Assembly (NCBI RefSeq): GCF_900169365.1
Contig: NZ_FXZH01000012.1
Coordinates: 1-64,000 of the forward strand
Direction of reading: 5' to 3'
Source: Brevibacterium sp. 239c
GTDB taxonomy: Bacteria > Actinomycetota > Actinomycetes > Actinomycetales > Brevibacteriaceae
DNA length: 64,000 nt
Under the pieces are notes generated by a model. That model made no database searches and was not told the origin of the DNA. It was given only the letters and a program-made list of their open reading frames with translations. The number at the start of each line of letters is the position of its first letter. The first letter of the stretch is position 1. Positions 2,776-53,942 of this stretch are shown here, piece by piece. The position numbers were made by a program, and so were the translations under genes.

Positions 2776-3744
2776 TCAGCCGCGACGGTTCCTGATCTCC
2801 TCGTTGACGGCGCCGACGACCTCGTGGAGATCGCCGATGATGGCGTAATCGGCGCGCTGAACCATCGTCGACTCCTCGTCGGTGTTGATCGCGATGAGCG
2901 TCTTCGCGCCCTCGATTCCGGCCATGTGCTGGATCGCGCCGGAGATTCCGCACGCGATGTAGACATCGGGGGTGATCCGACTGCCGGTCTGACCGACCTG
3001 TTCGGAATGCGGTCGCCAGCCCAGACCCGTGACCACGCGAGAGACTCCCAGGGCTCCGCCGAGGTGGTCGACGAGTTCGAGGACCTCGCCGAATCCGTTC
3101 TCCGAACCGACTCCGCGACCGGCTCCGACGACGGCTCTGGCCTGAGTCAGCCCTGTCGTGTCATTGCCATCGGTGGTTTCGACTTCGGTGCGAAGCACGC
3201 GGGTGCGCAGATCCTCCTCCGCGGCTTCGGGGGAGTGCGTGAGGACCTCCGGTGTCGTCGGTGTGGTCTCCTCCGGGTTGCAGGCGTGGCCGGCGACCGT
3301 AAGAACCTGCAGGTCACCGCCGAGTCGGAGGCGTTCGAACGCGGCCCCACCGAGCACCTGTCGCAGCAGACCCTCGTCGTCGGCGGCCACGACGTTGGCC
3401 GCCATCCGCTCACCGATGCGCACGGCCACATGTGTCATGAGCTCCATCCCGCGCGGAGTCCCCGAGGCCAGAACCGTCCCGGTCTCCGGCGCGATGTCGA
3501 CGAGAGCCTGAGCCCAGGCTGCGGCTGAATAGGCCTCAAGGTCCGCAGACTCGAGGTGGTGGATCCGGTCCACGCCGAGTGCTGCGAGCTGCTTGTGGGC
3601 TGACTCGGTGAGCGAGCCGATGACGGCAGCTTCGAGGACCGAACCGGCGAGGACGTCCGCGTTCGTACGGGCGAAGGTGAGCGCCTCGGCGGAGGTCAGC
3701 TGCACCTGACCACTCTCATCGGTTTCGACGTATACGAGAGTCAT
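2776..3744 (-). CDS. etfA: Electron transfer flavoprotein alpha subunit
   Basis: The 322-residue protein has the FAD-binding C-terminal domain of EtfA/FixB, seen as GLGWRPHSEQVGQTGSR followed by PDVYIACGISGAIQHMAGI. It carries electrons as a heterodimer with EtfB from a dehydrogenase to ETF-quinone oxidoreductase. Its start overlaps the end of etfB by four bases, so the two are translationally coupled. They follow directly after a dimethylglycine/sarcosine dehydrogenase-like gene, which makes this pair a likely dedicated acceptor for that enzyme rather than the housekeeping ETF of beta-oxidation. An insert in the middle (ETTPTTPEVLTHSPEAAEED) is longer than I expect for the family. Confidence 0.9.
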   Translation of the reverse strand: MTLVYVETDESGQVQLTSAEALTFARTNADVLAGSVLEAAVIGSLTESAHKQLAALGVDRIHHLESADLEAYSAAAWAQALVDIAPETGTVLASGTPRGMELMTHVAVRIGERMAANVVAADDEGLLRQVLGGAAFERLRLGGDLQVLTVAGHACNPEETTPTTPEVLTHSPEAAEEDLRTRVLRTEVETTDGNDTTGLTQARAVVGAGRGVGSENGFGEVLELVDHLGGALGVSRVVTGLGWRPHSEQVGQTGSRITPDVYIACGISGAIQHMAGIEGAKTLIAINTDEESTMVQRADYAIIGDLHEVVGAVNEEIRNRRG

Positions 3745-4529
3745 GACCTGATCACTCCGATCTCTTCGAGAATATCGACCAAGGCACCGGCAGCGTCACG
3801 GCCCTCGCCGAGGATCGTGACCGCGCTTGCCTTCTCCGGCGGCAATTCGAGGCCGATGCGCGGATTTCCGGCACCCGGCTCGGGCGCCACATATTCGGCA
3901 ATGCGAGCCTTCTTCGCCTTCATCCGACCGGTGATCGATGGATAGCGCGGGTCGATACCGCCCTCCTGGACGGCGATGACGGCGGGCAGCTCGAGGGAGA
4001 AGGCCTCGGTCCCGGCCGGCCCGATCCCGTGGGCCTCGATCGCGCCGGAGCCGCCGGAACCCCCGGTCGCGCTCAGCGTCTGGATCCCGGTCAGCACCGG
4101 GTATTCGAGATCATAGGCCAGGCGGATGGGGACCTGGAAATCACCGGTGTCGGCGGCATCATTGCCCAGCAGCACGAGATCGAAGTTCTGGCCCTCCTCG
4201 GCGCGATCACGGATGACGTCACCGATGATCGAGGCGATGTCTTCGGGGCCGAACGCCTCGGGATTGTCGGCTTCGATGAGGATTCCGTCGTTGGCGCCCA
4301 CGCCTACGGCTGCGCGCAGCTGCTCGACTGCTTCAGCGGGGCCCAACGTGAGTACTGTGACCGTGCCGCCGGTGGCAGCCGCGGTCTGGATGGCCAACTC
4401 CACCGCGCATTCCTCGTGCGCCGAGGTGGTGTGGCCCAGGCTCGAGTCGTCGATGTTCGTGCCGGATTCGTTGAGCGTGATCTGGCCAGAGATGTCGGGG
4501 ATGCGTTTGATGCAGACGAGGATGTCCAC
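3741..4529 (-). CDS. etfB: Electron transfer flavoprotein beta subunit
   Basis: 262 residues beginning MDILVCIKRIPD, the characteristic opening of EtfB/FixA, with the alpha/beta fold that holds AMP in the heterodimer. It lies three bases after the stop of the flavoprotein gene and overlaps etfA by four bases, so flavoprotein-etfB-etfA forms a three-gene operon on the minus strand. A glycine-rich stretch (TGGSGGSGAIE) around residues 153-163 is probably a flexible loop. Confidence 0.9.
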   Translation of the reverse strand: MDILVCIKRIPDISGQITLNESGTNIDDSSLGHTTSAHEECAVELAIQTAAATGGTVTVLTLGPAEAVEQLRAAVGVGANDGILIEADNPEAFGPEDIASIIGDVIRDRAEEGQNFDLVLLGNDAADTGDFQVPIRLAYDLEYPVLTGIQTLSATGGSGGSGAIEAHGIGPAGTEAFSLELPAVIAVQEGGIDPRYPSITGRMKAKKARIAEYVAPEPGAGNPRIGLELPPEKASAVTILGEGRDAAGALVDILEEIGVIRS

Positions 4530-4532
4530 GGC

Positions 4533-7046
4533 CTACCTCCTGATGCTCTCGTTGTCGGGATCGAAGAGGGGCGTGGCGTCGATCGAGGCCACCGTGACGG
4601 GGTAGGCCTCCTCCATGTAGACGACGGTGAGCTGGTTGCCCACGACCGCCTCGGCGGGAGGGAGGAAGGCCATGAGGACATGCTTGCCCAGGCTCGGGGC
4701 AGACCCCGCCGAGGTGACGAAGGAGTGGTGCCCGTGCCCGTCGACCAGCGGCCCGCCGTCCTTGGATTGGATGGGTTCCCCGCCGAGCATGTAGCGTTTC
4801 TCGCCGCTGGCGCTTGTATGATCGTCGACCGTGAGTGAGCACAGGATCGCCTTCGGGTCCTCCTCGCGGTGTCGCAGGTGGGCGTCGCGGCCGACGAAGT
4901 TCTGCGACTTCACCTTCGGTCGGGCCATGCCGACCTCGATGACGGTGCGGTCGGAGTCGAGTTCGGCACCGAAGGCGCGGTAGCCCTTCTCGATGCGGCC
5001 CGTGGTGCCGTAGACGCCGAGTCCCACCGGTACGAGACCGTGCTCTTTTCCGGCCTCGGTGAGGACGTCCCAGAGTTTGAGTCCGGATTCCATAGGGACG
5101 TAGAGTTCCCAGCCCAGATCACCGACGTAGGAGATGCGGGAGGCCAGCACCGTCAGCGAGCCGATCTCGATGGTCCGGGCCGTGCCGAACTTGAAGGCTT
5201 CGTGGGAGACGTCTGCGTTCGTGACCTGGGAGAGGATGTCGCGTGCCCGCGGTCCCCACAATCCGATCGTCGTCCATGACGAGGTGAGGTCGGCGATCTG
5301 GGCACCTGTCTTCGGGAGCCGATCGGCGAACCATTTGACGTCGACCATGCCGTGGGCGGCTCCCGTGACAACGCGGAACCGGTCGTGGGACAGTCGCATG
5401 ATGGTCAGGTCCGAGCGGAATCCACCTGCCTCGTCGAGGACCGGGGTGTAGACGACCCTGCCGATCTTCACATCCATCTGGGCCAGCACGATGGACTGGA
5501 CGGCATCGAGGGCGGCGGGGCCGAACACATCGAAGATGACGAAGCTTGAGAGGTCGACGAGTCCGGCGCGCTCGCGCATCGCTAGGTGTTCGGCGTTGGT
5601 GATCGGCGACCACCAGCGCGAGTCCCATTCCGCAGTGCGGTCCATGACCTTGTCGCCGAATTCTTCGAGCAGCGGTGCATTCGATTCGTACCACTGGGGG
5701 CGTTCCCAGCCGGCGACTTCGAAGAAGACGGCGCCGAGTTCCTTCTCGCGCTCATGCATGGGGGAGAGGCGAACGTTGCGGTCGGAGTTCCACTGCTCGC
5801 CGGGATGGACGATGCCGTAGGTCTTGATGAAGGCTTCCGAGGTGCGGGCCTGTACGTGTTCGCGGGTGCGTTGGTGCGGGTGGAAGCGGGCGATGTCGGC
5901 GCCCTGGACGTCGACCTCGGGCAGGCCGTTCGTCATCCACTCGGCCACGGCCCGGCCCACGCCCGGGCCTTCCTTGACCCACACGGCTGCGGCCGACCAC
6001 AGGCCTCTGACCTCGGGTGATTCGCCGAGGATGGGAGCACCGTCGGGAGTCAGGGACAGGAGACCGTTGATCGCGTAGCGGATCTCGACGTCGGGGTTGG
6101 ACAGCACATCGGGCATGAGTTCGAGGGCCTGTTCGAGCTGCGGGTCGAAGTCGTCGTCGGTGAAGGGCATCTCCGTGGGGGAGAGCTTCGCGGCCTCGAT
6201 CGAGGGGATCTCATCGGGCTCGTGGAGAATTGCACGGTGGGCGTAGGAGCCGATCTCCATGTCCGAGCCGTGCTGACGTTCGTAGCAGAAGGTGTCCATA
6301 TCGCGCACTATGGGGAAGGTGATCTCACCCGTCTGTTCGGCCAGCTGTGGGACCGGGCCGACGCTGATCATCTGGTGCACTGCCGGGGTCAGTGGGATCG
6401 CGGCACCGGCCATGGCAGCGATGCGCGGACTCCAGACACCGCAGGCGATGAGAATCTTGTCGGTCTCGATCGCACCCTTCGTGGTGTGCACGCGTGCGAT
6501 CGCTCCGCCCTCGACGTCGATGCCGGTCACCTCGGTGTTCGGCGACACAGTGAGAGCACCCTTCTTCTGCGCGGATTCGCGCATCATCGTGCCCGCCCCG
6601 ACGGAGTCGACGACGCCGACGCTGGGCGTCCAGAAGGCACCGACGATGACCGACGGGTCGAGGAACGGAACCTTCTCGACGACCTCTTCGGGGGTGACCA
6701 GATGAGATTCGATGCCCCAGGCCTTGGCCGAGGCCATCCTGCGCCGCAGCTCCTGCATGCGCGCCTGGGTGCGAGCGACCTCGTAGCCGCCGGACTGGGT
6801 GAAGACGCCGAGTTCCTTGTACTGACGCACGCTGTCAAGGGTGAGGTCGGTGATCTCGCGGGAATGATCGACCGGGAAGATGAAGTTCGAGGCATGTCCG
6901 GTCGAGCCGCCCGGGTTGGGCAGCGGACCCTTGTCGACCTGGACGATGTCGCTCCAGCCGAGCTCGGCCAGATGGTGGACGAGGCTGTTGCCGACGATGC
7001 CTGCACCGACGACAACGACACTGGCCTGGGCGGGAATGGAGGCCAC
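4533..7046 (-). CDS. Dimethylglycine/sarcosine dehydrogenase-like flavoprotein with GcvT domain
   Basis: This 837-residue protein has the same domain order and length as Arthrobacter dimethylglycine oxidase. It has a DAO-type FAD domain (VVVGAGIVG near residue 10), a middle linker domain, and C-terminal GcvT folate-binding domains from about residue 440. GGSTGHAS near residue 50 contains the histidine that carries covalent FAD in that family, and AGGFRSDLT near residue 550 contains the aspartate used in folate chemistry. It should oxidise an N-methyl substrate and pass the methylene group to tetrahydrofolate. Because it is co-transcribed with etfBA, it probably acts as a dehydrogenase rather than an oxidase. 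The GTG start has GGAGAGGAG upstream. The exact substrate is not determined by sequence. Confidence 0.82.
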   Translation of the reverse strand: MASIPAQASVVVVGAGIVGNSLVHHLAELGWSDIVQVDKGPLPNPGGSTGHASNFIFPVDHSREITDLTLDSVRQYKELGVFTQSGGYEVARTQARMQELRRRMASAKAWGIESHLVTPEEVVEKVPFLDPSVIVGAFWTPSVGVVDSVGAGTMMRESAQKKGALTVSPNTEVTGIDVEGGAIARVHTTKGAIETDKILIACGVWSPRIAAMAGAAIPLTPAVHQMISVGPVPQLAEQTGEITFPIVRDMDTFCYERQHGSDMEIGSYAHRAILHEPDEIPSIEAAKLSPTEMPFTDDDFDPQLEQALELMPDVLSNPDVEIRYAINGLLSLTPDGAPILGESPEVRGLWSAAAVWVKEGPGVGRAVAEWMTNGLPEVDVQGADIARFHPHQRTREHVQARTSEAFIKTYGIVHPGEQWNSDRNVRLSPMHEREKELGAVFFEVAGWERPQWYESNAPLLEEFGDKVMDRTAEWDSRWWSPITNAEHLAMRERAGLVDLSSFVIFDVFGPAALDAVQSIVLAQMDVKIGRVVYTPVLDEAGGFRSDLTIMRLSHDRFRVVTGAAHGMVDVKWFADRLPKTGAQIADLTSSWTTIGLWGPRARDILSQVTNADVSHEAFKFGTARTIEIGSLTVLASRISYVGDLGWELYVPMESGLKLWDVLTEAGKEHGLVPVGLGVYGTTGRIEKGYRAFGAELDSDRTVIEVGMARPKVKSQNFVGRDAHLRHREEDPKAILCSLTVDDHTSASGEKRYMLGGEPIQSKDGGPLVDGHGHHSFVTSAGSAPSLGKHVLMAFLPPAEAVVGNQLTVVYMEEAYPVTVASIDATPLFDPDNESIRR

Positions 7047-7089
7047 GGGAGGCTCCTCTCCGAAGGCATCTTCGCCTTCAACGGCACAT

Positions 7090-7119
7090 GTTGCGTACTA
7101 TGCAACGTGACGCACTATG
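7090..7119. promoter_or_regulatory. Candidate IclR operator in front of the flavoprotein-etfBA operon
   Basis: GTTGCGTACTATGCAAC (7090-7106) is an inverted repeat with 5-base arms. The core GTACTATG recurs as GCACTATG 17 bases later (7112-7119). The pair lies between the flavoprotein gene and the IclR gene upstream of it, the normal place for an operator bound by that IclR protein. Binding is inferred. Confidence 0.45.
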
Positions 7120-7188
7120 TGAAACTAGGTGCTCTGATCGTCCTCCGCCCGCCGAGGTGTGTCAAGGGGTCTGTTCGGCGACCGTTCC

Positions 7189-7965
7189 TCAGCTCTCGCG
7201 CCAGCCGAACCGTGACGAGATGTCGGCGGCCGCAGCCACCAGCAGATCCTTGGCAGCTTCGACCTTTTCCTCCGTGAAGCGAAACCCCGGTCCCGAGGCA
7301 GAGACCGAGGCGATGACATCGCCGTGGGCGTTGCGAATCGGGGCAGAAACGGCGGTGAGGCCGATCTCGAGCTCATCGATGACGATCGAGTGTCCGGCGG
7401 CGACCACCTCGGCGACTTCAGCGAGCAGATGGGGGATCGCGGTCACCGTGTGCGGAGTGTAGGTCGGCAGTCTCTTTTCGAGTGCGGCGCGGATGCCTGC
7501 CTCGCTCAGGCCCGACAGGAGGACCTTGCCGTTCGATGTCGCGTGCAGGGGGATGCGCTGGCCGACCCAGTTGTGGCTCTGGACAGAGGCACTGCCGGAG
7601 ACCTGGTCGAGGTAGAGGGCCGCGCCGTCGGAGAGGACGGCGACGTTGATCGTCTCACCGGTGCGTTCTGCTAAGAGCTTCGCGATGGGGCGGGCTTCCT
7701 GGACGATGTCGAGACGTGCGGTGGTGGCTCCGGCAAGGCGGAGGATGCCAAGACCCAGGCGGTACTTGCCGCGATGCTGGTCCTGTTCGACGAGGCCGCG
7801 GGCCTCAAGTGTGGACACGATGCGGGAGGCGGTCGATTTGTGCACGCCGAGTTCGACTGCGATGTCGGTGACCCCGGCGAGCCCGGTGCGGGCGATGACC
7901 TCGAGGATCGTGACCGCGCGGTCGACTGACTGCACGGAGCCGGAATTCGTCTCGCTGTTGCTCAT
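7189..7965 (-). CDS. IclR-family transcriptional regulator
   Basis: 258 residues. The N-terminal winged helix (SVQSVDRAVTILEVIARTG, then GVTDIAVELGVHKSTASRIVSTL) is followed by the IclR effector-binding domain. It lies directly upstream of, and on the same strand as, the dimethylglycine dehydrogenase-like operon, so it is the likely regulator of that operon. The ATG at 7965 was chosen because the IclR domain begins a few residues later; an upstream in-frame TTG would add ten unusual residues. It is divergent from a second IclR gene, so the 121-base spacer probably holds two facing promoters. Confidence 0.88.
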   Translation of the reverse strand: MSNSETNSGSVQSVDRAVTILEVIARTGLAGVTDIAVELGVHKSTASRIVSTLEARGLVEQDQHRGKYRLGLGILRLAGATTARLDIVQEARPIAKLLAERTGETINVAVLSDGAALYLDQVSGSASVQSHNWVGQRIPLHATSNGKVLLSGLSEAGIRAALEKRLPTYTPHTVTAIPHLLAEVAEVVAAGHSIVIDELEIGLTAVSAPIRNAHGDVIASVSASGPGFRFTEEKVEAAKDLLVAAAADISSRFGWRES

Positions 7966-8086
7966 TTCGAAACTGTAACTCACATGACACAACACGAACA
8001 GGGTTCAATCACGGGTGATGTAGGGTGAATGCCGCCGGAGCGCCGATGGCGCCGCGGCACATCTTTCCCCGACGGAGTTGAGCGCT

Positions 8087-8836
8087 ATGACCAATGGGAC
8101 CCAGTCGATCGATCGCGCGGCAGAGATATTGTCGCTGGTGGTGAAGTCGGATGACCCGATCTCCTACACAGAAGTGGTGGAGTCGACGGAGCTGGCACGA
8201 TCGACGGTCTCACGCCTGCTCTCCGCCCTCGAACGCAACGGTCTGGTCGAACGTGACGGCGATGGACTCTATCGTGGAGGATCCCTTTTCGCGACCTACG
8301 CTTCACGCTTCGATCGGGTCGAAACGCTGGTCACGGCGGCCGATCCCACGCTGCAGCGGCTGAGCGAGGAGACCGGCGAGACGGTCAATCTCGCCGTGCC
8401 CAGTGCCACAGGTGTCGTGCAGGTCGCACAGGTCGATTCGACCTTCGTCCTCGGCGCCACGAACTGGGTCGACGTGGAGGTGCCACCGCACTGCTCGGCG
8501 CTGGGCAAGATCATGTACGCCTTCGATATCATCCCGGTTCCCGCTGGCCGGTTGGAGCGCCGCACCCCGTACACCTTGGGCTCCCGGAAAGAGCTCATGG
8601 ACAACCTCGCCGAGGTGCGCGAACGTGGGTATGCGCTCGTGCACGAGGAATTCGAAGAGGGACTCGATGCCCTGGCCGCACCCGTGTACGGCGTCGACGG
8701 TCAGGTGGTTGCGGCGATCGGAATCTCGGGACCGACCATGCGCATCGCTGCACATCATGACGACGTCGGACGCCTCCTCGTCGACGAGGCGGGTCTGCTC
8801 TCCCGCAGCCTCAAGCGCAAGGTCACCCACCGCTGA
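8087..8836 (+). CDS. IclR-family transcriptional regulator
   Basis: 249 residues with an N-terminal winged helix (GTQSIDRAAEILSLVV, ELARSTVSRLLSALERNGLV) and a C-terminal effector domain containing GYALVHEEFEEGLDALAAPVYG, typical of IclR proteins. The ATG at 8087 is preceded by GGAG at 8074-8077, 9 bases before it. It is divergent from the IclR gene at 7189-7965. Its target is not obvious: the next gene is convergent, and the divergent dehydrogenase operon is one candidate. A 17-base tandem repeat begins at its stop codon. Confidence 0.87.
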   Translation: MTNGTQSIDRAAEILSLVVKSDDPISYTEVVESTELARSTVSRLLSALERNGLVERDGDGLYRGGSLFATYASRFDRVETLVTAADPTLQRLSEETGETVNLAVPSATGVVQVAQVDSTFVLGATNWVDVEVPPHCSALGKIMYAFDIIPVPAGRLERRTPYTLGSRKELMDNLAEVRERGYALVHEEFEEGLDALAAPVYGVDGQVVAAIGISGPTMRIAAHHDDVGRLLVDEAGLLSRSLKRKVTHR

Positions 8837-8936
8837 GTCCCGCGTTTCCCTGAGTCGGACGAACCCCCGAGTCGTACGAACCCTTGAGTCACACTAACCC
8901 CTGCGTCGTACGAACCCTTGAGTCACGCGTTCCGGA
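8835..8936. repeat. 17-bp tandem repeat, six imperfect copies
   Basis: Six head-to-tail units of 17 bases can be lined up at 8835, 8852, 8869, 8886, 8903 and 8920. The clearest units read GAGTCGTACGAACCCTT and GCGTCGTACGAACCCTT. The array fills the space between two convergent genes and runs into the last codons of the minus-strand gene. There is no unique spacer between units, so this is a minisatellite and not a CRISPR. Confidence 0.85.
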
Positions 8937-10509
8937 ACGTTCCTGAGTCGGCGCGCGCCCAGTCCCTCGCCCATGACTCCGGTGGCTGTGCCAGAAGCTC
9001 TCCCGGCTGCAGCCATTCGTAGAGTTCGGCATAGGAGCGGTGCTCGTTGCGGGAGATATTGCGCTGCAGGTGTTCCGGGCGCAGCTCCTGCGGGCTGCTG
9101 GCACCCATTGATGCCATGATCTCGACGGCCTGCTCGACCGTCGCTTCTTGGTAGTTCTTTACGCGTTCGCTCTTGTCGCCGACGTGCAGGGCACGCTGAC
9201 GCTTCGGATCCTGGGTCGTCACCCCGACGGGGCAGAGCCCGGTGTGGCAGATCTGGGCCTGGATGCAGCCGACGGCCATCATCATCGCTCGTGCCGAATT
9301 CGTGTAGTCCGCTCCTTGGGCCAGGCGTTTGACGATGTCGTTGCCAGCAGCGACCTTACCGCTGGCCCCGATCCGGATCTGGTCGCGCAGGCCGGTGCCG
9401 ACCAAAGCATTGTGCATGGTGAGCAGCCCGTCGGTCAGGGGCGTTCCCATGTGATCTTCGAACTCGAGAGGAGCCGCACCCGTTCCTCCTTCAGAGCCGT
9501 CGACGATGATGAAGTCCGGTGCCGTGCCGACGTCCTTGATGGCCTTGCAGATCGCCAGCACATCGATACGGGAGCCGACGCACAGTTTGAAGCCGGCGGG
9601 CTTCCCGCCAGATAGTTCACGCATGCGGGCAATGAATTCGATGAGTTCGGTCGGGGTGCTGAAGGCAGAGTGCGCCGGGGGACTGACGCACTTCACGCCC
9701 TGGGGGACCCCTCGGGCCCGGGCGATCTCCGCATTGACCTTGGCCGCCGGCAGGACGCCGCCGATGCCTGGCTTTGCGCCCTGGCTCAGCTTCAGGGACA
9801 CGCATTTGACCTGATCACGCGAACTCTGCTGTGCGAACTGCTCGGGGTCGAATCGGCCCTCGTCGGTGCGTGTGCCGAAGTATCCGGAGCCCACTTCCCA
9901 GATCAGGTCACCATTGTTCTCAAGATGATAAGGCGAGATGCCGCCTTCGCCGGTGTCGTGGGCGAAGCCGCCCATCTCCGCCCCGCGATTGAGCGCTCGC
10001 ACCGCGTTGGGCGACAGAGCACCGAAGCTCATCGCAGAGACGTTGAGCAGGGACATGCTGTAGGGGTGTGAGCAGTCGCGGCCGCCCACGATGACACGTG
10101 GCGGCGTCGCAGGAGCGGGGATTGGGGCAGTGGAATGAACGAGATATTCATAGCCTTCAGCATTGACGTCGCGCTCGGTGCCGAAGGCCTTCTCTCCGTG
10201 GATGCCCTTCGACCGTTCATAGACGATCGAGCGTGTGTCGCGGTCGAAGGGGCGACCGTCCCAGTTGCGTTCGATGAAGTACTGCTGGAGTTCTGGTCGT
10301 AGGCTCTCGAGGAGAAACCGCAGGTGCCCGACGACCGGATAGTTGCGCAGGATCGCGTGTTTCTTCTGTGTGAGATCGTAGATCGCGAGAACGATGACGG
10401 CGGCGACGAGGGCACCGATCACCCACCAGGCCCACGGTCCGACTGCTGCCGCCCACCCCAGTGCCACCAGAATGCCGAGTGTCGCAGCGATTGCCAGGAA
10501 ACGTCCCAT
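8923..10509 (-). CDS. Membrane-anchored FMN-binding glutamate-synthase-like protein (YerD type)
   Basis: 528 residues. Two hydrophobic segments (about residues 3-21 and 25-43) anchor the protein. The rest is the FMN and Fe-S domain of glutamate synthase (GltB domain 2), seen in VSLKLSQGAKPGIGG, IIVDGSEGGTGAAPLEF and the cysteine motif CIQAQICHTGLCPVG. It lacks the glutaminase and C-terminal domains of true glutamate synthase, as do the stand-alone homologues typified by Bacillus YerD. Their physiological reaction is not firmly known. A 17-base tandem repeat covers its last codons. The protein is complete. Confidence 0.83.
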   Translation of the reverse strand: MGRFLAIAATLGILVALGWAAAVGPWAWWVIGALVAAVIVLAIYDLTQKKHAILRNYPVVGHLRFLLESLRPELQQYFIERNWDGRPFDRDTRSIVYERSKGIHGEKAFGTERDVNAEGYEYLVHSTAPIPAPATPPRVIVGGRDCSHPYSMSLLNVSAMSFGALSPNAVRALNRGAEMGGFAHDTGEGGISPYHLENNGDLIWEVGSGYFGTRTDEGRFDPEQFAQQSSRDQVKCVSLKLSQGAKPGIGGVLPAAKVNAEIARARGVPQGVKCVSPPAHSAFSTPTELIEFIARMRELSGGKPAGFKLCVGSRIDVLAICKAIKDVGTAPDFIIVDGSEGGTGAAPLEFEDHMGTPLTDGLLTMHNALVGTGLRDQIRIGASGKVAAGNDIVKRLAQGADYTNSARAMMMAVGCIQAQICHTGLCPVGVTTQDPKRQRALHVGDKSERVKNYQEATVEQAVEIMASMGASSPQELRPEHLQRNISRNEHRSYAELYEWLQPGELLAQPPESWARDWARADSGTFRNA

Positions 10510-10628: not shown

Positions 10629-11267
10629 CTATGCCTCGATCCGGAGAGAACTGAGAAATCTGCCTGTGAAATCAGAGATGTGGTCACGTCCTGCGCGAAC
10701 GACGGCAATGGCGAATCCACCATTGACCTTGACGGATCCTCTGAAGTCCTGACCACTGGAGCTGCCGGGGGTGGTGACCGAGTGGAAGAAGCGGATGATC
10801 CGCTGGGCACCGAAGATCGGATTGAGTGCAGAGGAGACCTTGCCGCCCCCATCGGCCCAGAACACGGCGTCCTCGGCCAGCAGCAGGCCGAGTGCTGTTC
10901 TCAGATCGCCGCTGTGAATCGCATCGATGAGACGACCGAGCATCGCCGAGTCCGCGGTGCGAGTCACCTGCCGATCCAGATCGATCCGGCGTGCGGCTCG
11001 TGAGATCATCTGGCGCACAGCGGCAGAGCTCTTGCCGAGAATTCCGGCGACCTCCTCGGCGCTCATATCGAAGGCCCTGGTGAGAACGAAGGCCGCGCGG
11101 GTCTCCGGGTTCAGCTGCTCGGCCAGGTGGAGCAGTGTCAGCGACAGCAGGTCCCGATTCGCGACCGCATCCTCTGGCAGCTGGTCGGTCGAGACCGGCT
11201 CGGGCGGCCTCTGTGCTGGCAGCCGTATCGCCTGGGCTGCCGAACTCGATCCCGTCCACCTCTCCAA
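10629..11267 (-). pseudogene. ECF41-type sigma factor lacking region 2 and the C-terminal end
   Basis: The 212-residue frame contains a sigma region 4 helix-turn-helix (SAEEVAGILGKSSAAVRQMIS) and a C-terminal SnoaL/NTF2-like domain with DGGGK, which marks the ECF41 group. Region 2, about 80 residues needed for core RNA polymerase and -10 binding, is absent: upstream sequence is the neighbouring AhpD-like gene. The NPDKL motif normally near the C-terminus is also missing. The only start is a weak TTG at 11267. Linkage to a carboxymuconolactone-decarboxylase-like gene is typical of ECF41 loci, so I read this as a decayed sigma gene. A shortened regulator that only titrates the C-terminal domain cannot be excluded. 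Confidence 0.65.
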
Positions 11268-11911: not shown

Positions 11912-12772
11912 TCACGACGTGCTCGGGACCTCATCGGTGTGTCCTAGAGCAGCGAGCTGCTTGCGTCGCCAGATCTCCGTGTCCTTGATCTGGTTGAAAG
12001 TATAGATGTGGAGTCCGGCCACGCCCATGGTTGGATCGTCCAGGATGGGTGCGAGTTTGTCGAGGAATTTCCGTGGGTTGTACCCGCCAGGTTTGGCCAT
12101 TCGGGAGAAGGTCGCCGTGTTCTTGCGCAGGAACCGTGTCGATTCGCCCACGCCGATCTTCGACGCGACGCGGGTCAGCTTCGTCAGTTCCACTTTGCCA
12201 GCGATGCCCAGGATGAGCGGCAGCTCGATGCCGCGCGCCCGCACCCTGGCCAGCCACGTGGCGATGACTCCGGGATCAAAGCACAGATTCGAGACGAGGT
12301 GGGTGGCGTAGTCGCGTTTGTCCCACATCGCTTGGATGGTGACGTCATCGGGGATCAGCGGGTGAGTCTCCGGGTAGGCGCTGACGCCGAGGTGCTGGAT
12401 CGGTGCCGCCATGCTCGCGAGGTCGACGATGAGGTCGAGTGCTCCGGCATAACCTCCGGCTGGGGGCGTGGCATCGCCGGCGGGGACGAAGATCCGATCG
12501 ATGCCGGCCTGCGTGATGCGGTCGACGATCTCCTCGAGCTCGGTTCTGCCCTGGACCATCCTCGCTGCGATGTGGGGGACCGCATTGAATCCGAGCGCCT
12601 GCAGCTGTTCCGCGGTCGACAGCGTGGCCTCAAGTGTCAGCCCGGTCGAGGCGGTCACAGTGATCACCCGGCCGGGTGCGACGTACTCGTGGACACGGTC
12701 GACGACTCCGGCGGTGGGAAGGATTTCATAGCGCGCGGATTTCAGCAGCGTGCTCAGAACTTCCTGTGACAT
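11912..12772 (-). CDS. Methylenetetrahydrofolate reductase family protein (MetF-like)
   Basis: 286 residues with the MetF TIM barrel: early strand RVITVTASTGLTLEATLSTAEQL, then VPHIAARMVQGR, RIFVPAGDA, HLVSNLCFDP and HIYTFNQIKDTEIW, which line up with the FAD- and folate-binding regions of methylenetetrahydrofolate reductase. It interconverts 5-methyl- and 5,10-methylene-tetrahydrofolate. Divergent pairing with a DmdA-like methyltransferase suggests it runs in the oxidative direction, recovering methyl groups, rather than serving methionine synthesis. Similar metF/methyltransferase pairing is known for the lignin O-demethylase LigM. GGAG precedes the ATG. Confidence 0.8.
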   Translation of the reverse strand: MSQEVLSTLLKSARYEILPTAGVVDRVHEYVAPGRVITVTASTGLTLEATLSTAEQLQALGFNAVPHIAARMVQGRTELEEIVDRITQAGIDRIFVPAGDATPPAGGYAGALDLIVDLASMAAPIQHLGVSAYPETHPLIPDDVTIQAMWDKRDYATHLVSNLCFDPGVIATWLARVRARGIELPLILGIAGKVELTKLTRVASKIGVGESTRFLRKNTATFSRMAKPGGYNPRKFLDKLAPILDDPTMGVAGLHIYTFNQIKDTEIWRRKQLAALGHTDEVPSTS

Positions 12773-12873
12773 CCCGTGCTCCTTTGAGAGGATCCCTGGA
12801 AAGTGGTCGACGGCTGATGAATCTGGATGGAAACCCTTGCTTCCGTCGACACTTCAATCCTACACTGATTCTA

Positions 12874-12909
12874 CCCATAATATGGGAATCGAGTTCTACA
12901 ATGTAGAAC
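12874..12909. promoter_or_regulatory. Two palindromic candidate operators between metF-like and dmdA-like genes
   Basis: CCCATAATATGGG (12874-12886) and GTTCTACAATGTAGAAC (12893-12909) are both perfect inverted repeats with a 3-base centre. The first overlaps CATAAT, a likely -10 element for the gene at 12930. The second lies between that promoter and the start. They sit in the divergent spacer and probably control both genes; the regulator is not identified. Confidence 0.6.
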
Positions 12910-12929
12910 TGATCAGCAGGGGGAACATC

Positions 12930-14234
12930 ATGGACAACAACGTTCCATCAGTGGACCAAAGCGACAGACAAGTCCCAATCAACCTACGCCAATCAGGCCC
13001 CACGCCAGTCGAGATGCTCATTGACACCAGAGTGCGGAAGTCTCCGTACTGGGAGCTGTCGATGCAAGAGGGATGCTGGCGAGCCTCTATCTACAACCGG
13101 ATGTACCACCCGCGCGGCTATGTGCCTCGCGAGGATGGCGGGATGATGGTCGAGTACCAGTCTCTCGTCAACGACGTGACCTTGTGGAACGTCGCCGTCG
13201 AACGTCAGATCCAAGTCAAGGGTCCCGACGCCGAGGCGTTCGTGAACTATGTCATCACCCGTGACGCGACCAAAATCCCAGTCATGCGCGCCCGTTACGT
13301 GATCCTGTGCAATGAAGCCGGAGGCATCCTCAACGACCCGATCCTGCTGCGAGTGGCGATCGACGAATTCTGGTTCAGCCTCTCGGACACCGACCTCATG
13401 CTCTGGCTGCAGGGCGTCAACGTCGGCAAGGGGTTCGACGTCACCATCGCCGAGATCGATGTCTCGCCGGTGCAGGTCCAGGGTCCGAAGTCCGTCGATG
13501 TCATCGCCGACCTCGTCGGTGAAGAGGGGCGCACGCTGCCCAGCTATGGACTCATGGAAGCCCAAGTCGGCGGGCACGACGTCATCATCTCCCAGACAGG
13601 GTTCACTGGAGAGAAGGGCTACGAGATCTACCTCAAGGACTCGACGAAATACGCCGAGGACATGTGGAACGCAGTGCTCGCAGCCGGCATTCCCTACAAC
13701 CTCAAGGTCGTTGCTCCCAGCCATCACCGCAGGATTGCCGCAGGCATCCTGTCGTGGGGTCAGGACATGGACTTCGAGACCTACCCGTTCCAGGTCAACC
13801 TCTCTTACCAGGTGCCGCGGAAGAAGGAAGCCGACTACATCGGCAAAGCGAAACTCGAGGAGGTTCGTGAGCAGATCACTGCCGGTACTCCACCGTTCAA
13901 GACTCAGCTCGTGGGTCTGCTGGTCGGCGGAAAGCCGATCACAGACTACGCTCCCGACTTCTGGCTGGTCAGCGCCACATCTGGTGGCGACCCGGTCGGG
14001 TATGTGACGTCGCCCTGGTACTCACCGGAGCTCGAAGCCAATATCGCGATGGCACATGTGCCGGTCGAGAGCAGTGCGCTGGGAACCGAGTACTGGGTTC
14101 AACTCCCCGAACCCTTCGCAGACACCCCGGGTGAGCCCGTTCGCGCCGAGGTGGTGGAGATGCCGTTCCGGGCGAGCGTCAACCCCAGCCAGCGTGAACG
14201 TCTGAAGATGAACGGCCTCGACGCCGCCGTCTGA
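12930..14234 (+). CDS. GcvT-family methyltransferase, DmdA-like
   Basis: 434 residues of the aminomethyltransferase (GcvT) family. The order of conserved blocks, including YNRMYHP, LWNVAVERQIQVKGPDA, NDPILLRV, VQGPKS and GYEIYLKDS, resembles dimethylsulfoniopropionate demethylase DmdA more than glycine-cleavage T protein. DmdA moves a methyl group from DMSP to tetrahydrofolate. The true substrate here is unknown; a sulfonium, quaternary amine or O-methyl compound is possible. The start at 12930 is set by AGGGGG upstream; an in-frame opening to 12750 lacks a ribosome site and overlaps metF. Divergent metF supports use of the methyl-folate product. Confidence 0.72.
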   Translation: MDNNVPSVDQSDRQVPINLRQSGPTPVEMLIDTRVRKSPYWELSMQEGCWRASIYNRMYHPRGYVPREDGGMMVEYQSLVNDVTLWNVAVERQIQVKGPDAEAFVNYVITRDATKIPVMRARYVILCNEAGGILNDPILLRVAIDEFWFSLSDTDLMLWLQGVNVGKGFDVTIAEIDVSPVQVQGPKSVDVIADLVGEEGRTLPSYGLMEAQVGGHDVIISQTGFTGEKGYEIYLKDSTKYAEDMWNAVLAAGIPYNLKVVAPSHHRRIAAGILSWGQDMDFETYPFQVNLSYQVPRKKEADYIGKAKLEEVREQITAGTPPFKTQLVGLLVGGKPITDYAPDFWLVSATSGGDPVGYVTSPWYSPELEANIAMAHVPVESSALGTEYWVQLPEPFADTPGEPVRAEVVEMPFRASVNPSQRERLKMNGLDAAV

Positions 14235-14660: not shown

Positions 14661-16115
14661 TCATTTCCTGCGGAGTGACTTCACCTTCGCGAGGAGTTCG
14701 TCTTCAGCATTCGGTCCGGCCTTGATGCCGGTGGGCAGGCGGAACATGAAGAAGACTCCGACTGCGAGCCAGAGGCCGAACATGGCCCACGACTGCCAAT
14801 CCAACTGTGCTGAGACCGGGGTGATCGGCAGGTAGAGGATGAAGAGGATGAAGGTCAGGATAGAAGAGATCACGCCGATGATGAAGCCACCATTGCGCGG
14901 CCCGCCGATGCGCAATGGACGTTCCATGTTCGGCTCGCGCCTGCGCAGAACCAGGAAGCCGACGCTGACGAGGAAGTAGGCGATGACGATCGCTGGTGAT
15001 CCCGCATCGACGATCCAGCCGAGGGCCGCTGTGCCGAAGAACGGGGCGACGGCGGAGAGGGCTCCGATGAAGATGATCGCGTTGGACGGGGTCCGGTACT
15101 TGGGGTGCAGTTTGCCGAACCATTTCGGGATCATGCCCGCTGCGGCCATTGCCCACATCAGTCGGGACGAGCCCATGAGGAATGCGTTCCATGAGGTGAT
15201 GATGCCTGCCAGACCGCCGGCGATGACGATCTTGCCCCAGATGGGCGAACCGAACATGGACGCGAGGGCGTCGGCGGTGACGAGGTCGTGGGTGCCCAAT
15301 TCGGATGCGGGCATGGCCACCGAGGTGGTGCCGATGATGATCACGTAGAAGGCCACGGCCATGATGACGGAGATGACGACGAGCTTGCCGATCTTCGCAG
15401 GAGGAAGTTTGACCTCCTCGGCGGACTGCGGGATGACATCGAAGCCGACGAACAGGAACGGGACGACAGCCATCACTCCGATGAAGCCGGCGCCACCGCC
15501 GGAGAAGAATGGTTCGGCGTTCTCGATCGTTCCGCCGGTGAAGCCGCCGGCCAGCAGCATGAGTCCGACGATGATGAGGAACCAGACGACGAAGGTCTGG
15601 ACCATGGAGGCGAGCTTGACGCCGCGGATGTTGATCCACGCGATGATGATCGCTGTGATGGTGCCGACGAGGGCCCAGGTGAGATAGACATCGGAACCGG
15701 CGATGGTCCACATCTTTATCTGTTCGAGGTTCGGGAACAGATAGACGGCGGTCTTCGGCACCGAGACGGCCTCGAACATGACGACGCTGATATAGCCGCC
15801 GGTGATCGCCCAGGATCCGAAGAGAGAGACTTTGGGGCCCATCGCCCGGATGAGGTAGTTGTGCTCACCGCCGGCGTGCGGCATCGCGGCCACCATCTCG
15901 GAGTACACCGTGCCGACGAAGCACATGATGACGCCACCGACGATGAACGCGAGAATCGCGCCGAGGGTGCCGGCACCGGTGAGCCAATCGCCGGTGAGGA
16001 CGACCCAGCCGAAACCGATCATCGCTCCGAATCCGATGAACAGGGCATCGATCGTTCCCAGCGATCTGACGAAACCGTGGCCCCGGTCGTCGATCTCCGT
16101 GTTCTGCTGCGTCAT
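14661..16115 (-). CDS. APC-family amino acid/amine permease
   Basis: 484 residues with about twelve hydrophobic segments. The opening GTIDALFIGFGAMIGFGWVVL matches the first helix of amino acid-polyamine-organocation transporters, with the unwound substrate-binding glycines. It should import an amino acid or amine across the cytoplasmic membrane in symport. Its position beside methyl-group metabolism genes makes a methylated amine or amino acid plausible, but this is only context. The gene starts with ATG at 16115 and is convergent with the DmdA-like gene. A very basic C-terminus (KVKSLRRK) lies on the cytoplasmic side. Confidence 0.85.
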   Translation of the reverse strand: MTQQNTEIDDRGHGFVRSLGTIDALFIGFGAMIGFGWVVLTGDWLTGAGTLGAILAFIVGGVIMCFVGTVYSEMVAAMPHAGGEHNYLIRAMGPKVSLFGSWAITGGYISVVMFEAVSVPKTAVYLFPNLEQIKMWTIAGSDVYLTWALVGTITAIIIAWINIRGVKLASMVQTFVVWFLIIVGLMLLAGGFTGGTIENAEPFFSGGGAGFIGVMAVVPFLFVGFDVIPQSAEEVKLPPAKIGKLVVISVIMAVAFYVIIIGTTSVAMPASELGTHDLVTADALASMFGSPIWGKIVIAGGLAGIITSWNAFLMGSSRLMWAMAAAGMIPKWFGKLHPKYRTPSNAIIFIGALSAVAPFFGTAALGWIVDAGSPAIVIAYFLVSVGFLVLRRREPNMERPLRIGGPRNGGFIIGVISSILTFILFILYLPITPVSAQLDWQSWAMFGLWLAVGVFFMFRLPTGIKAGPNAEDELLAKVKSLRRK

Positions 16116-17308: not shown

Positions 17309-18520
17309 TCACTGCTCGGCCACCCTGATCTCCGTGAAATGAAACTCGGAGTCGTGGCGCTTCGCGGCACGCCGGATCCGCTCCGCGGTGAGCCTGCTGA
17401 TCTCAGGGAAACCGGTCTCGGAGTCCGCATCCACGAGGCTGCGCGCATTCTTCGACTGCAGCGGTTCTGGGGTCTGGACGAGGATGAACTTCCGTGAGCC
17501 TTCGTCTCTCTGATTGGCAGCCATCACTGCCTGCGCGGTCGTACCGGACCCGGCGAAGAAGTCGAGGACGATGGCGTCGGGATCGAAGAACGTCTGCGAG
17601 GCCACGAGCGTCTTGACCAGGTCGACGGGTTTGGGATAGCTGAAGATCCCACCCAGTCCGAGATCTTCGAGGTCGTTCTGCCCGCCCAGGGCTTTGATGA
17701 TCGAGTAGAGCTTCGAACTTGCCTTCTCAGCAGGCGTGACTCGCACGACCGCATGTTTCCCCTGGGCACCCCATTGGCGCAGAACATATTCACCCGAGGC
17801 CAACTTCGCATCCACCTCGGCGAGCTTCTTCGCTCCTTTGACATCGACGATGTCCTCGTACATCAGCCGGCGTTCCTGACCCCGGGCGTAGCGGCCGAAG
17901 CCGGCACGCAGCACATCCGTTTCGACGAGCATGCGTTTGCCGTCGATGATCTCAAGCTTCGCCGGGGCCTTCTTCTCCGTCAGGAACGCACCCGCCTGAT
18001 CAGCGACTTTGGCCCACACGTGAACATAGTCGTGGCCGCGGACGAAGGAGGGGGAGTTGCCGCCGCCCTTCGCGCGCTGATGGATCAGGGTGCCCAGCGA
18101 ATTGTCCTCGCCGAAGATCTCATGCCCCAGCAGCTGCGCCCACGCGCTCTCCCCATCGTCGAGGTGGATGAAGATCACGCCGTCATCGCGCATGAGCTCA
18201 CGTGCGAGCATGAGTCGCGGCGTCATGAAGTTCAGCCAGCTCGCATGATCGTGCCCATGATCCTTATACGCCAGCGCATTGCCCGTGTTGTACGGCGGAT
18301 CGATGTAGACGACCTTGACCCGCCCGCGATGCGTGGCCAGCAGCCCGGTCAGCGCCGGCAGGTTGTCCCCGACGACCAACATATTCTCAGCGACGTCCGG
18401 AACGTGGGTGTCACCATTGCGAATGAAATGCGGAACCTCGCCGAGGTGGCTCTGCTGTTCCAGCCGTTCGCCGAGTGCGAAGGCGGCGTCCTTTCCAGTC
18501 CAGTTCAGGGCCGTCGACAT
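17309..18520 (-). CDS. Site-specific DNA methyltransferase (beta class, type III Mod-like), orphan
   Basis: 403 residues. DPPYNTGN at residues 74-81 is catalytic motif IV of N6-adenine/N4-cytosine methyltransferases, and DFFAGSGTTAQAV near residue 325 is the S-adenosylmethionine motif I. This order (IV before I) marks the beta class that includes type III Mod subunits. No restriction subunit is nearby, so it is an orphan that may act in regulation or protection. The ATG at 18520 follows GGAGAAGG; the longer reading frame upstream would overlap the divergent oxidase gene. Target sequence unknown. Confidence 0.85.
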   Translation of the reverse strand: MSTALNWTGKDAAFALGERLEQQSHLGEVPHFIRNGDTHVPDVAENMLVVGDNLPALTGLLATHRGRVKVVYIDPPYNTGNALAYKDHGHDHASWLNFMTPRLMLARELMRDDGVIFIHLDDGESAWAQLLGHEIFGEDNSLGTLIHQRAKGGGNSPSFVRGHDYVHVWAKVADQAGAFLTEKKAPAKLEIIDGKRMLVETDVLRAGFGRYARGQERRLMYEDIVDVKGAKKLAEVDAKLASGEYVLRQWGAQGKHAVVRVTPAEKASSKLYSIIKALGGQNDLEDLGLGGIFSYPKPVDLVKTLVASQTFFDPDAIVLDFFAGSGTTAQAVMAANQRDEGSRKFILVQTPEPLQSKNARSLVDADSETGFPEISRLTAERIRRAAKRHDSEFHFTEIRVAEQ

Positions 18521-18557
18521 CCTTCTCCTTCTCCGCGATCGGTGCCAAGATTGCTGT

Positions 18558-20114
18558 ATGAGTATTTCACGAGTGGCCGTGATCGGTGCCGGGATCGTCG
18601 GAGTGGCGCTCGCCAGGGAGATCACCGGCCGACTTCCAGCCGCTGAAGTGACCGTCTTCGATAAGGCTGACCGTGTTGGCGCACATCAGAGCGGGCACAC
18701 CTCGGGGATCGTGGATCCCACCCTCGATGCGAAGGCAGGATCACCGGAAGCGAAGCTCGCCCGTCGAGGTGTTGAGCTGTTGGTCCCCTACGTGTCCGAA
18801 CGCGGCATTCCCTACCGCGCGTGCGGGCAGCTCCTCGTCGCGCAGACCACCGACGAAGCCGACCGGCTCGAAGAGATCCTCGCCCGGGCCGAGGCGAACG
18901 CGATCCCGGGGGTCCGGCTACTCGATCGCAACGAGATGCGCGAGGTCGAACCCAATGCCAGGGGAGTCCTCGCCCTGTATTCGCCGCACACGGCCGTCAC
19001 CGATTTCACCGCCCTGACCGAGGCGTTCGCTTCCGATGTCACCGCAGCCGGGGGTACCTTCCGCTTCGGCACCGAGGTCACCGGCCTGGACGTGATGAGC
19101 AACGAAGTCCGCGTCCGCATGTGTGCTGCAGCACCCGAGCCTGACACGGATGCGGCCAGTGACACCGGAGCCGACAGGCGGGAGAGTGGCGACCATTCCC
19201 AGGTTCGCGACGACATCGACGATCAGGTGCACGAGGCCCCGCGGACATATCGTGGTGAGGACTCGACTGGGCCGGTCATCGACTTCCGCGACGAGCTGCG
19301 CAGCCGTTTCGGTGAGCAGGGCTGGTTCAAGCAGGTCGAGGATACGATTGGCAACCTCAGCGACCGATTCACCAACCCGGCCGCGGGACGTGAACGGCCA
19401 GGAGCCCCTGATCATGAACGGCCAGGTGCTCGTGAGCAGGAACGGCCAAGTACCCGCGAGCGTGAACGTTCGGAGCGGTCCGAGGACGCGGAGGTTTTTG
19501 ACCTCGTCATCGTCTGCGCTGGTCTCCAGGCTGACCGTCTGGCGTTGGCAGCCGGCTTCGACGAGGAGCCTCGCATCGTGGCCTTCACCAGCGACTACTA
19601 CAGTGTCGACGACTCCACCGAGGTGGTTCGGGGCATCATCGGAACGGTTCCCGATGCCGGCACCCCGTTTACCGGGAAGTCTGTGGTCAGGGGCGTCAAT
19701 GGCTCCTTGTCCCTGGGCCCGAACACATTCGTGTCCTTGGGGCGCGAACGCTATGACAAGCACGGTTTCGACCTCGGCGATATGGGGTCGACAGTCGGCT
19801 TCAAGGGGTTCTGGAAGTTCGCGGCGCAGACTGCGAAGACCGCGGCACGCGGTGCGAAGTCGGCCGTCAGCTCCTCCTCCTTCGTCGCAGAGGTTCGTAA
19901 GTTCGTTCCTGCCATCGACGCATCGACCGTCCGACCAGGAACGCGCGGCATCCGCGCACAGGCAATCGATGCTGGAGGCAAGCTCGTCGACGAACTGCGC
20001 GTGACCACGCGCGGCAGGCTCACCATGGTCAGGAGCCTCCCCAGGTCAGGGGCCACCTCGGCGCTGGCTGCCGCGGAGCGCATCGCGGACCAGGCCCTGG
20101 ACGCGAACGCGTGA
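18558..20114 (+). CDS. lhgO: L-2-hydroxyglutarate oxidase-like FAD protein with large insert
   Basis: 518 residues; the family is usually near 400. VAVIGAGIVGVALARE at residues 6-21 is the FAD-binding start, HQSGHTSGIVDP matches the L-2-hydroxyglutarate oxidase flavin region, and the distal part (SLSLGPNTFVSLGRERYDKHGF) also fits. It would oxidise L-2-hydroxyglutarate to 2-oxoglutarate. About 120 extra residues, from roughly 190 to 310, form a charged insert with repeated ERPGA and ERPST units encoded near 19385-19470. The insert precedes the beta strand DLVIVCAG, so it could be a surface loop. The start is ATG at 18558, 37 bases from the divergent methyltransferase start. Confidence 0.78.
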   Translation: MSISRVAVIGAGIVGVALAREITGRLPAAEVTVFDKADRVGAHQSGHTSGIVDPTLDAKAGSPEAKLARRGVELLVPYVSERGIPYRACGQLLVAQTTDEADRLEEILARAEANAIPGVRLLDRNEMREVEPNARGVLALYSPHTAVTDFTALTEAFASDVTAAGGTFRFGTEVTGLDVMSNEVRVRMCAAAPEPDTDAASDTGADRRESGDHSQVRDDIDDQVHEAPRTYRGEDSTGPVIDFRDELRSRFGEQGWFKQVEDTIGNLSDRFTNPAAGRERPGAPDHERPGAREQERPSTRERERSERSEDAEVFDLVIVCAGLQADRLALAAGFDEEPRIVAFTSDYYSVDDSTEVVRGIIGTVPDAGTPFTGKSVVRGVNGSLSLGPNTFVSLGRERYDKHGFDLGDMGSTVGFKGFWKFAAQTAKTAARGAKSAVSSSSFVAEVRKFVPAIDASTVRPGTRGIRAQAIDAGGKLVDELRVTTRGRLTMVRSLPRSGATSALAAAERIADQALDANA

Positions 20115-53150: not shown

Positions 53151-53942
53151 TCAGATGTGGCGACCGCCGGAGATCTCGGTGACGGTGCCGGTGAGGTAGC
53201 TGGAGAGGCCGGAGGCCAGGAACAGCACCACCGAGGCGACCTCTTCGGGCTCGCCAGGACGGCCCAGCGGGATCTCGGAGAGCTTCGAATCGATCACGTG
53301 CTGCGGCATGGCCGCGGTCATCGCGGTGTTGATGAAGCCGGGCTGGATCGCGTTGATGCGGATGCCCTTGAACGCGACCTCCTTGGCCACGGCCTTCGTC
53401 ATGCCGACGATGCCGGCCTTCGCTGCGGAGTAGTTCGACTGGCCGAGCATGCCGACCTTGCCGCTGATGGATGAGACGTTGACGATTGCTCCGCCGCGGT
53501 CCTGTTCGCGCATGAGACCGGTGGCGACCTTGAGTCCGTTCCAGGTTCCGCGCAGGTGCACGGAGATGACGTCGTCGAATTCCTTCTCGGTCATCTTCCG
53601 GATCGTAGCGTCGCGGGTGATGCCGGCGTTGTTGACCCAGATGTCGACGCCGCCGAAGGTCGTCGTTGCCGTCTCGGCGAGCTTTTCAGTGTTCTCCAGT
53701 GAGGCCACATTGCACACGACACCGGCAGCTGATTCCGTACCGCCGAGTTCCTCAACGGCTGAGCGTAGGCTCTCCTCGTTCATGTCGCCGAGGACGACCT
53801 TCGCGCCGGAGTTCACGAGGCTGCGGGCCATGGCCAGGCCCAGCCCCTGGGCGCCGCCGGTGACGACGGCAACCTTGCCGGTGAGCAGGCCGGGGATCTC
53901 GGAGATCCCCTGTGCGGTGGAAGTGGTGGGTGCATCAGTCAT
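53151..53942 (-). CDS. Short-chain dehydrogenase/reductase (FabG / 3-hydroxyacyl-CoA type)
   Basis: 263 residues. The cofactor motif [16 protein letters not shown], catalytic Ser in VSSISG and YSAAK are all present. It oxidises or reduces a hydroxyl/keto group with NAD(P). Being last in an operon with an acyl-CoA dehydrogenase and a CoA-transferase, a 3-hydroxyacyl-CoA dehydrogenase role is likely. GGAAGAA precedes the ATG. 69 bases separate it from the dehydrogenase gene. Confidence 0.88.

Follow-up and report, generated by a model that had tools for sequence, protein, structure and literature searches.

The window analysed here was a 64,000-nucleotide stretch of a contig from Brevibacterium sp. 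239c, a salt-tolerant bacterium. The initial annotation had placed a GcvT-family gene and a divergent MetF homologue in it, and both were present at 12930–14234 (plus strand) and 11912–12772 (minus strand), respectively. The features of the locus were as follows, with tetrahydrofolate abbreviated as THF, dimethylglycine as DMG and DMG dehydrogenase as DMGDH.

2776–3744, minus strand: electron-transfer flavoprotein (ETF) alpha subunit (PF00766/PF01012; 39–42% identical to etfA of actinobacterial operons)
3741–4529, minus strand: ETF beta subunit (PF01012; 43% identical to etfB of actinobacterial operons)
4533–7046, minus strand: DMG-dehydrogenase-like FAD + GcvT fusion, 837 aa (DMG oxidase 1pj5, E 2.6e-162; DMGDH, 1.2e-84)
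7189–7995, minus strand: IclR-type regulator 1, travelling with the dehydrogenase/ETF genes (PF01614, 3.4e-39; 39–50% identical to IclR of actinobacterial clusters)
8078–8836, plus strand: IclR-type regulator 2, which probably controls the metF/methyltransferase pair (Pfam IclR_C, 2.5e-31; locus conservation)
11912–12772, minus strand: MetF-like 5,10-methylene-THF reductase, 286 aa, proposed 5-methyl-THF oxidase (PF02219, 7xg9 match, kept Glu/Asp, adjacency)
12837–12866, plus strand: conserved promoter-like TTGCTT-18-TACACT of the methyltransferase gene (present in 23 Brevibacterium sequences and in part in Leucobacter)
12874–12886, no strand: operator-like palindrome 1, CCCATAATATGGG (CCCATA-a-TATGGG), immediately after the promoter (conserved in both place and sequence across 23 sequences)
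12892–12910, no strand: operator-like palindrome 2, AGTTCTACAATGTAGAACT, that is AGTTCTACA-a-TGTAGAACT; genus consensus GTTCCATAATATARAAC (palindrome scan, alignment)
12930–14234, plus strand: GcvT/DmdA-fold THF-dependent methyltransferase, 434 aa, proposed glycine betaine:THF methyltransferase (Pfam, NCBIfam, tree, model, RBS/ATG)

The methyltransferase gene was taken to start at ATG 12930, as this start was kept by the Brevibacterium relatives in the locus alignment; a 494-aa frame from GTG 12750 was rejected as over-long. Upstream of the ATG, the window had AGCAGGGGGAAC, and GCAGGGGGAACAcCATGGACAACAA or a near-identical sequence was kept at the gene start in the Brevibacterium alignment. 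Orthologues 89–97% identical were found in more than 20 Brevibacterium genomes. The permease gene that the initial annotation had read as an uptake component was present, encoding an APC permease (14661–16115) that was convergent on the other strand, approximately 430 bases from the methyltransferase gene, and was kept in 22 of 24 Brevibacterium/Leucobacter loci. When neighbour families were compared, it did not recur in the methyltransferase gene cluster outside these two genera, and it was not counted in the conserved system; an uptake role is not supported outside Brevibacterium. Elsewhere in the window, a SigJ-type ECF sigma factor frame (10629–11267) began at approximately position 80 of its model, its 5' end looking truncated or frameshifted, and an L-2-hydroxyglutarate oxidase homologue (18492–20111) carried a low-complexity, RE/RP-repeat-rich insert in mid-protein.

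The two perfect palindromes noted initially between the genes were palindromes 1 and 2. Their centres were 21 bases apart, approximately two helical turns, and both stood at the same place behind the −35/−10 pair across 23 Brevibacterium sequences. The perfection of palindrome 2 was limited to strain 239c and its closest relatives, while CCATAATAT was common to both palindromes in the genus (CCCATAATATGGG and GTTCCATAATATARAAC). Palindromes with 9-base arms and a 1-base centre occurred only twice in the 64-kb window, the other being at 53892–53910. Palindrome 2 had no second site within three mismatches in the window, and an operator matrix search across the window revealed no further convincing site, the regions ahead of the DMGDH and IclR genes included. 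The strain's perfect palindrome was rejected as a genome-wide operator, since no other site with at most one mismatch was found in the genome and the counts were about those of the reversed control.

With the single exception of L010, every Brevibacterium locus that covers this region had IclR-type regulator 2 near the pair, also where the dehydrogenase genes lay elsewhere, and in the Leucobacter locus L031, an IclR 62% identical to it was encoded directly beside the methyltransferase gene. The location of the palindromes directly past the promoter suggests a repressor, and we infer that the IclR repressor encoded at 8078–8836 probably acts on these two sites. As the palindromes were conserved in position, the IclR gene was close by and the DmdA-type protein was paired with MetF, the regulated methyl-catabolic module initially proposed is considered likely.

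The methyltransferase had GCV_T (4e-39) and GCV_T_C (5e-11) domains in Pfam and reached no equivalog cut-off in NCBIfam. The DmdA model (NF009133) gave 238.3 bits against a cut-off of 410, true DmdA scoring 477–703 bits on it. The TMAO demethylase and SoxA models gave 166 and 115 (cut-offs 1100 and 1164), the GcvT models 157 and 143 bits (cut-offs 300 and 236), and the LigM and DesA models 31 and 45 bits (cut-offs 580 and 800). In a maximum-likelihood tree of 75 sequences, whose deepest joins were uncertain owing to long outgroup branches, the methyltransferase belonged to a distinct clade (27 rows, SH-aLRT 100), whose members in marine and halophilic Proteobacteria were 67–73% identical to it. 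The sister of this clade was an actinobacterial clade (approximately 40–47% identical), and DmdA formed a separate clade (SH-aLRT 100), leaving the methyltransferase outside DmdA proper. The three clades lay together in a superclade (SH-aLRT 97) without GcvT, SoxA, DMG dehydrogenases, Tdm and LigM, and the methyltransferase was also away from sarcosine oxidase and DMG oxidase. On profile scores and tree, the protein was rejected as a member of the GcvT, LigM or sarcosine oxidase families and of DmdA proper. The initial assignment as DmdA-like rather than GcvT was upheld at the level of the superclade, and placement in the GcvT or sarcosine oxidase clade, which had been set as the test of that assignment, came out negative. 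The true gcvT-gcvH pair of the genome was on the same contig (C25), at 65 kb.

The AlphaFold model of the methyltransferase had a mean pLDDT of 75, with low confidence at 1–33 and 269–296, and was nearest to DmdA 3tfh (Z 30.9, 355 aligned residues), followed closely by GcvT and DMGDH. The protein had the GcvT fold with a THF site, in which the folate-site residues E204 and Y206 were kept, and many positions fixed in DmdA were different, such as E241→A and R194→Q (3tfh numbering). The family pattern HHRRIAAGILSWGQD occurred where DmdA, the actinobacterial sister clade and GcvT keep Glu, and H265, H266 and R267 were specific to the family. An N-terminal motif, VDQSDR.VP.NLRQSG.TP..ML..TR.RKSPYW, was nearly invariant in the family; this stretch of approximately 35 residues (12930–13040), modelled with low confidence, could serve as a lid or interface. 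A residue like W197 has been used as a DMSP marker (PMC7487153), and it was given no weight here because Roseobacter DmdA mostly have Tyr at that position. In Rhodobacteraceae (L185–L189, L196), DmdA-like paralogues scoring 320–384 bits, just under the DmdA cut-off, were common and belonged to several clades.

The MetF homologue carried a PF02219 MTHFR domain (1.6e-13; 51 bits against a cut-off of 24), and its best solved-structure match was the MTHFR 7xg9 (4.7e-34). The catalytic Glu of YEILP and Asp of AGD aligned with 7xg9 and were kept across most of the family, and the protein was accordingly assigned to MetF. Its score on TIGR00676 was 62 against an equivalog cut-off of 294, and it was thus regarded as a divergent type. 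The gene adjoined that of the methyltransferase in Brevibacterium and in other phyla, so that the pairing claimed initially was found to recur well beyond the window.

The gene neighbourhood was compared in 56 loci outside Brevibacterium and Leucobacter, and counts were taken from the 35 whose flanks reached 4.5 kb or more on each side. MetF was encoded in 18 of these, formate-THF ligase (Fhs) in 15, a DMGDH-type protein in 20 and SoxA in 11. DMGDH or Sox genes were within 8 kb in 23 of the 35 (OYE-only matches left out), whereas approximately 2% per 17-kb stretch would be expected by chance, by our own arithmetic from about four such loci per 4.4-Mb genome like G000, the Brevibacterium genome. 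A GbdR-like regulator occurred in nine loci (the L035 copy scoring 382 bits against the GbdR cut-off of 480), and five (L043, L056, L063, L074 and L084) were without any betaine or C1 gene nearby. At least three types of DMG demethylase adjoined the gene, namely, two DMGDH subfamilies with approximately 27% mutual identity and, in Vibrionaceae, DgcAB. In Photobacterium, the order was soxB-soxD-soxA(G)-gene-metF-fhs-pepD-DUF5943-dgcA-dgcB; the methyltransferase and metF genes stood where gbcAB would be expected, and gbcAB was missing. The pepD-hp-dgcAB part corresponded to the betaine genes reported in P. aeruginosa and V. natriegens, and gbcA and dgcA are needed for growth in V. natriegens (PMC12093977). 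In some Vibrionaceae copies (L202:4428–5606, also L200 and L201), a fatty-acid-hydroxylase-family membrane protein was encoded between fhs and pepD.

In the actinobacterial sister clade, DMGDH and/or Sox genes were found in all seven loci read. Three of the seven, L214, L215 and L216, had gcvT-like-metF-fhs-DMGDH-etfBA operons, followed by an IclR gene in two of them. Linked DMG and sarcosine demethylation genes, the mark of a betaine cluster, were found in the DMGDH/etfBA genes of the window, the soxBDAG genes of the genome and the loci of other phyla. While 11912–14234 was correctly given as the gene pair, the system extended beyond it and took in the DMG-dehydrogenase/ETF/IclR genes at 2776–8836.

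The window MetF, DMGDH and ETF were 33–44%, 61–63% and 39–43% identical, respectively, to those of the actinobacterial gcvT-like/metF/fhs operons, and the methyltransferase was approximately 40% identical to the gcvT-like protein of these operons and nested with the proteobacterial ones (68–73%). In the tree, the Brevibacterium and Leucobacter methyltransferases nested inside proteobacterial diversity. The simplest reading of these sequences would be an actinobacterial operon whose methyltransferase gene was replaced by a proteobacterial one.

Other loci of the Brevibacterium genome were also considered. Contig C58 held the soxBDAG genes and a locus (L112, G000:C58:215000–233000) with a GbcA-like oxygenase (390 bits, cut-off 670), a GbcB-like reductase, formaldehyde dehydrogenase (fdhA) and a DMG oxidase (1204 bits to 1pj5). 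A second GbcA-like Rieske locus (L114, G000:C37:46000–62000; 410 bits, cut-off 670) had a DgcA-like OYE-family gene and is perhaps for another betaine. As Brevibacterium also has GbcAB-like genes, glycine betaine demethylation there may not need the methyltransferase gene; two parallel routes look possible, one with oxygenase and oxidase and the other with O2-free folate transfer and dehydrogenase/ETF. At 7256–9609 of a further locus (L115, G000:C27:138000–152000), a true LigM (860 bits, cut-off 580) was encoded directly behind a second divergent MetF, and by these matches this is a methoxyaromatic O-demethylation pair in the same genome.

Known first-step enzymes were searched for in 21 genomes. 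PF00848 Rieske oxygenases were not found in 12 of the 21, and MttB-family proteins were not found in 20. Five of the 12 PF00848-free genomes (two Photobacterium, Rhodospira, Roseospira and one SAR86) had no stand-alone homocysteine methyltransferase, the PF02574 domain being absent or only of MetH size; in Photobacterium, PF00848 (GbcA) and PF06253 (MttB) gave no match, and PF02574 occurred only at MetH size. The methyltransferase is the only first-step candidate found in these five genomes. Among 197 Vibrionaceae, nine had both the gene and GbcA, five the gene only, nine GbcA only and 174 neither, an association with a Fisher p of 8e-8 in which kinship between genomes is ignored. A GbcA-like gene was also found in 18 of 19 Brevibacterium carriers. 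Mutual exclusion of the two genes was rejected as they co-occur in both groups, and the enrichment of GbcA among Vibrionaceae carriers is what a shared role in betaine catabolism would predict.

Fold, clade, gene partnership across phyla and the conserved promoter and palindromes were read directly from the sequence; we infer the substrate, the direction of MetF and which regulator binds the palindromes. DmdA transfers a methyl group from a sulfonium carboxylate, a zwitterion, to THF, yielding 5-methyl-THF (PMC5395565), and a 5-methyl-THF-oxidising role has been proposed for MetF2 of R. pomeroyi (PMC12478193). We consider it likely that 12930–14234 encodes a THF-dependent glycine betaine demethylase and that MetF, DMGDH/ETF, Sox and IclR complete the system. 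Glycine betaine is an ammonium counterpart of the DmdA substrate. Unlike a tertiary amine, its quaternary N-methyl group is not open to oxidation by a flavin dehydrogenase. Thus, removal by an oxygenase or by transfer is needed, and transfer to THF, which yields 5-methyl-THF, would explain a dedicated MetF. The methyltransferase would convert glycine betaine and THF to DMG and 5-methyl-THF, taking one methyl group and no oxygen, and the divergent MetF, in the role proposed for MetF2, would oxidise 5-methyl-THF to 5,10-methylene-THF, thereby passing the methyl carbon to the folate C1 pool. The FAD/GcvT dehydrogenase with ETF (2776–7046) would demethylate DMG next, sarcosine oxidase, encoded elsewhere in the genome, would carry out the final demethylation, and enzymes of the Fhs, FolD and PurU types would close the folate cycle. 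The initial expectation of a methylated compound outside the obvious known pathways was not supported, as the gene neighbours instead suggest an everyday osmolyte, glycine betaine.

At least for Brevibacterium, the same mechanism could act on another quaternary betaine (such as proline betaine, beta-alanine betaine or carnitine), which would explain the coexistence with GbcAB-like genes there; a distinct Rieske oxygenase 5–6 kb from the methyltransferase gene in L034, L035 and L038 also fits it. However, the 67–73% family identity across phyla suggests one substrate, the neighbouring genes encode DMG and sarcosine enzymes, which act on compounds derived from glycine betaine, and Photobacterium had no other known first-step enzyme that was found, making this reading unlikely, though the strongest of the rivals. 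Far less credit is given to a functional DmdA acting on DMSP. DmdA was the best match in both NCBIfam and fold, and many carriers are marine, but the score was far below both the cut-off and that of true DmdA, the clade was separate, DmdA-fixed positions were changed, and no DMSP-pathway acyl-CoA ligase or dehydrogenase was recognised among the recurring neighbour families.

Co-localisation with DMGDH and Sox would also suit a DMG or sarcosine demethylase, or a folate-loading auxiliary of DMGDH, rather than a first-step enzyme. Those flavoenzymes, however, have their own GcvT-type folate domain, and on chemical grounds an extra methyl-THF-forming enzyme with MetF would be needed only for a non-oxidisable methyl group; such a role is thus judged very improbable. 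Least probable is a methoxyaromatic O-demethylase of the LigM/DesA kind. LigM is likewise GcvT-fold, THF-dependent and MetF-linked, as in the C27 pair, yet the LigM and DesA scores were far below the cut-offs, LigM was far away in the tree, and no aromatic catabolic genes were among the recurring neighbours.

Returning to glycine betaine, we further think it probable, with somewhat less assurance than for the locus itself, that an O2- and cobalamin-independent demethylation, carried out by one GcvT-fold glycine betaine:THF methyltransferase together with its own methyl-THF-oxidising MetF, is widespread, occurring in SAR86, Marinobacter, Photobacterium and phototrophic/halophilic Alphaproteobacteria, with a sister form in many Actinobacteria. 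Glycine betaine ranks among the most abundant marine osmolytes. If the proposal is true, the gene markers for tracing glycine betaine carbon and nitrogen flow would change (SAR86, halotolerant Actinobacteria), the C1 unit would be folate-borne without oxygen or formaldehyde release, and genes now labelled merely aminomethyltransferase or DMSP-demethylase-like would be explained.

Known routes of the first demethylation run through GbcAB, BHMT or the cobalamin-dependent MtgBCD. In P. aeruginosa, a 'glycine betaine transmethylase' was reportedly described by Serra et al. in 2002. The first demethylation has been described as a step of elusive mechanism (PMC12478193). No published description of a GcvT- or DmdA-type betaine demethylase was found in open-licence PMC papers, and set against this literature, the methyltransferase family appears undescribed.

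Compared with known systems, the methyltransferase resembles DmdA of P. ubique (3tfh) in fold, folate-site residues, expected THF acceptor and expected zwitterionic onium substrate, but differs by its separate clade, sub-cut-off score, conserved N-terminal extension of approximately 35 residues and betaine-catabolic neighbours. The LigM-MetF pair of Sphingobium SYK-6 is likewise a GcvT-fold THF-dependent demethylase beside a divergent short-type MetF, whereas its substrate class, clade and neighbours are different. The GbcAB monooxygenase shares the proposed step from glycine betaine to DMG and the downstream genes (dgcAB, soxBDAG, GbdR), but it is a Rieske oxygenase, unrelated as a protein, which consumes O2 and releases formaldehyde. 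In MtgBCD with MetF2 of Ruegeria pomeroyi (PMC12478193), a glycine betaine methyl group is also passed to THF and MetF2 then oxidises methyl-THF; that system is cobalamin-dependent with an MttB-family protein, whereas one GcvT-fold protein is proposed here. The actinobacterial operons of L214, L215 and L216 have the same gene set, although their methyltransferases are only approximately 40% identical to that of the window.
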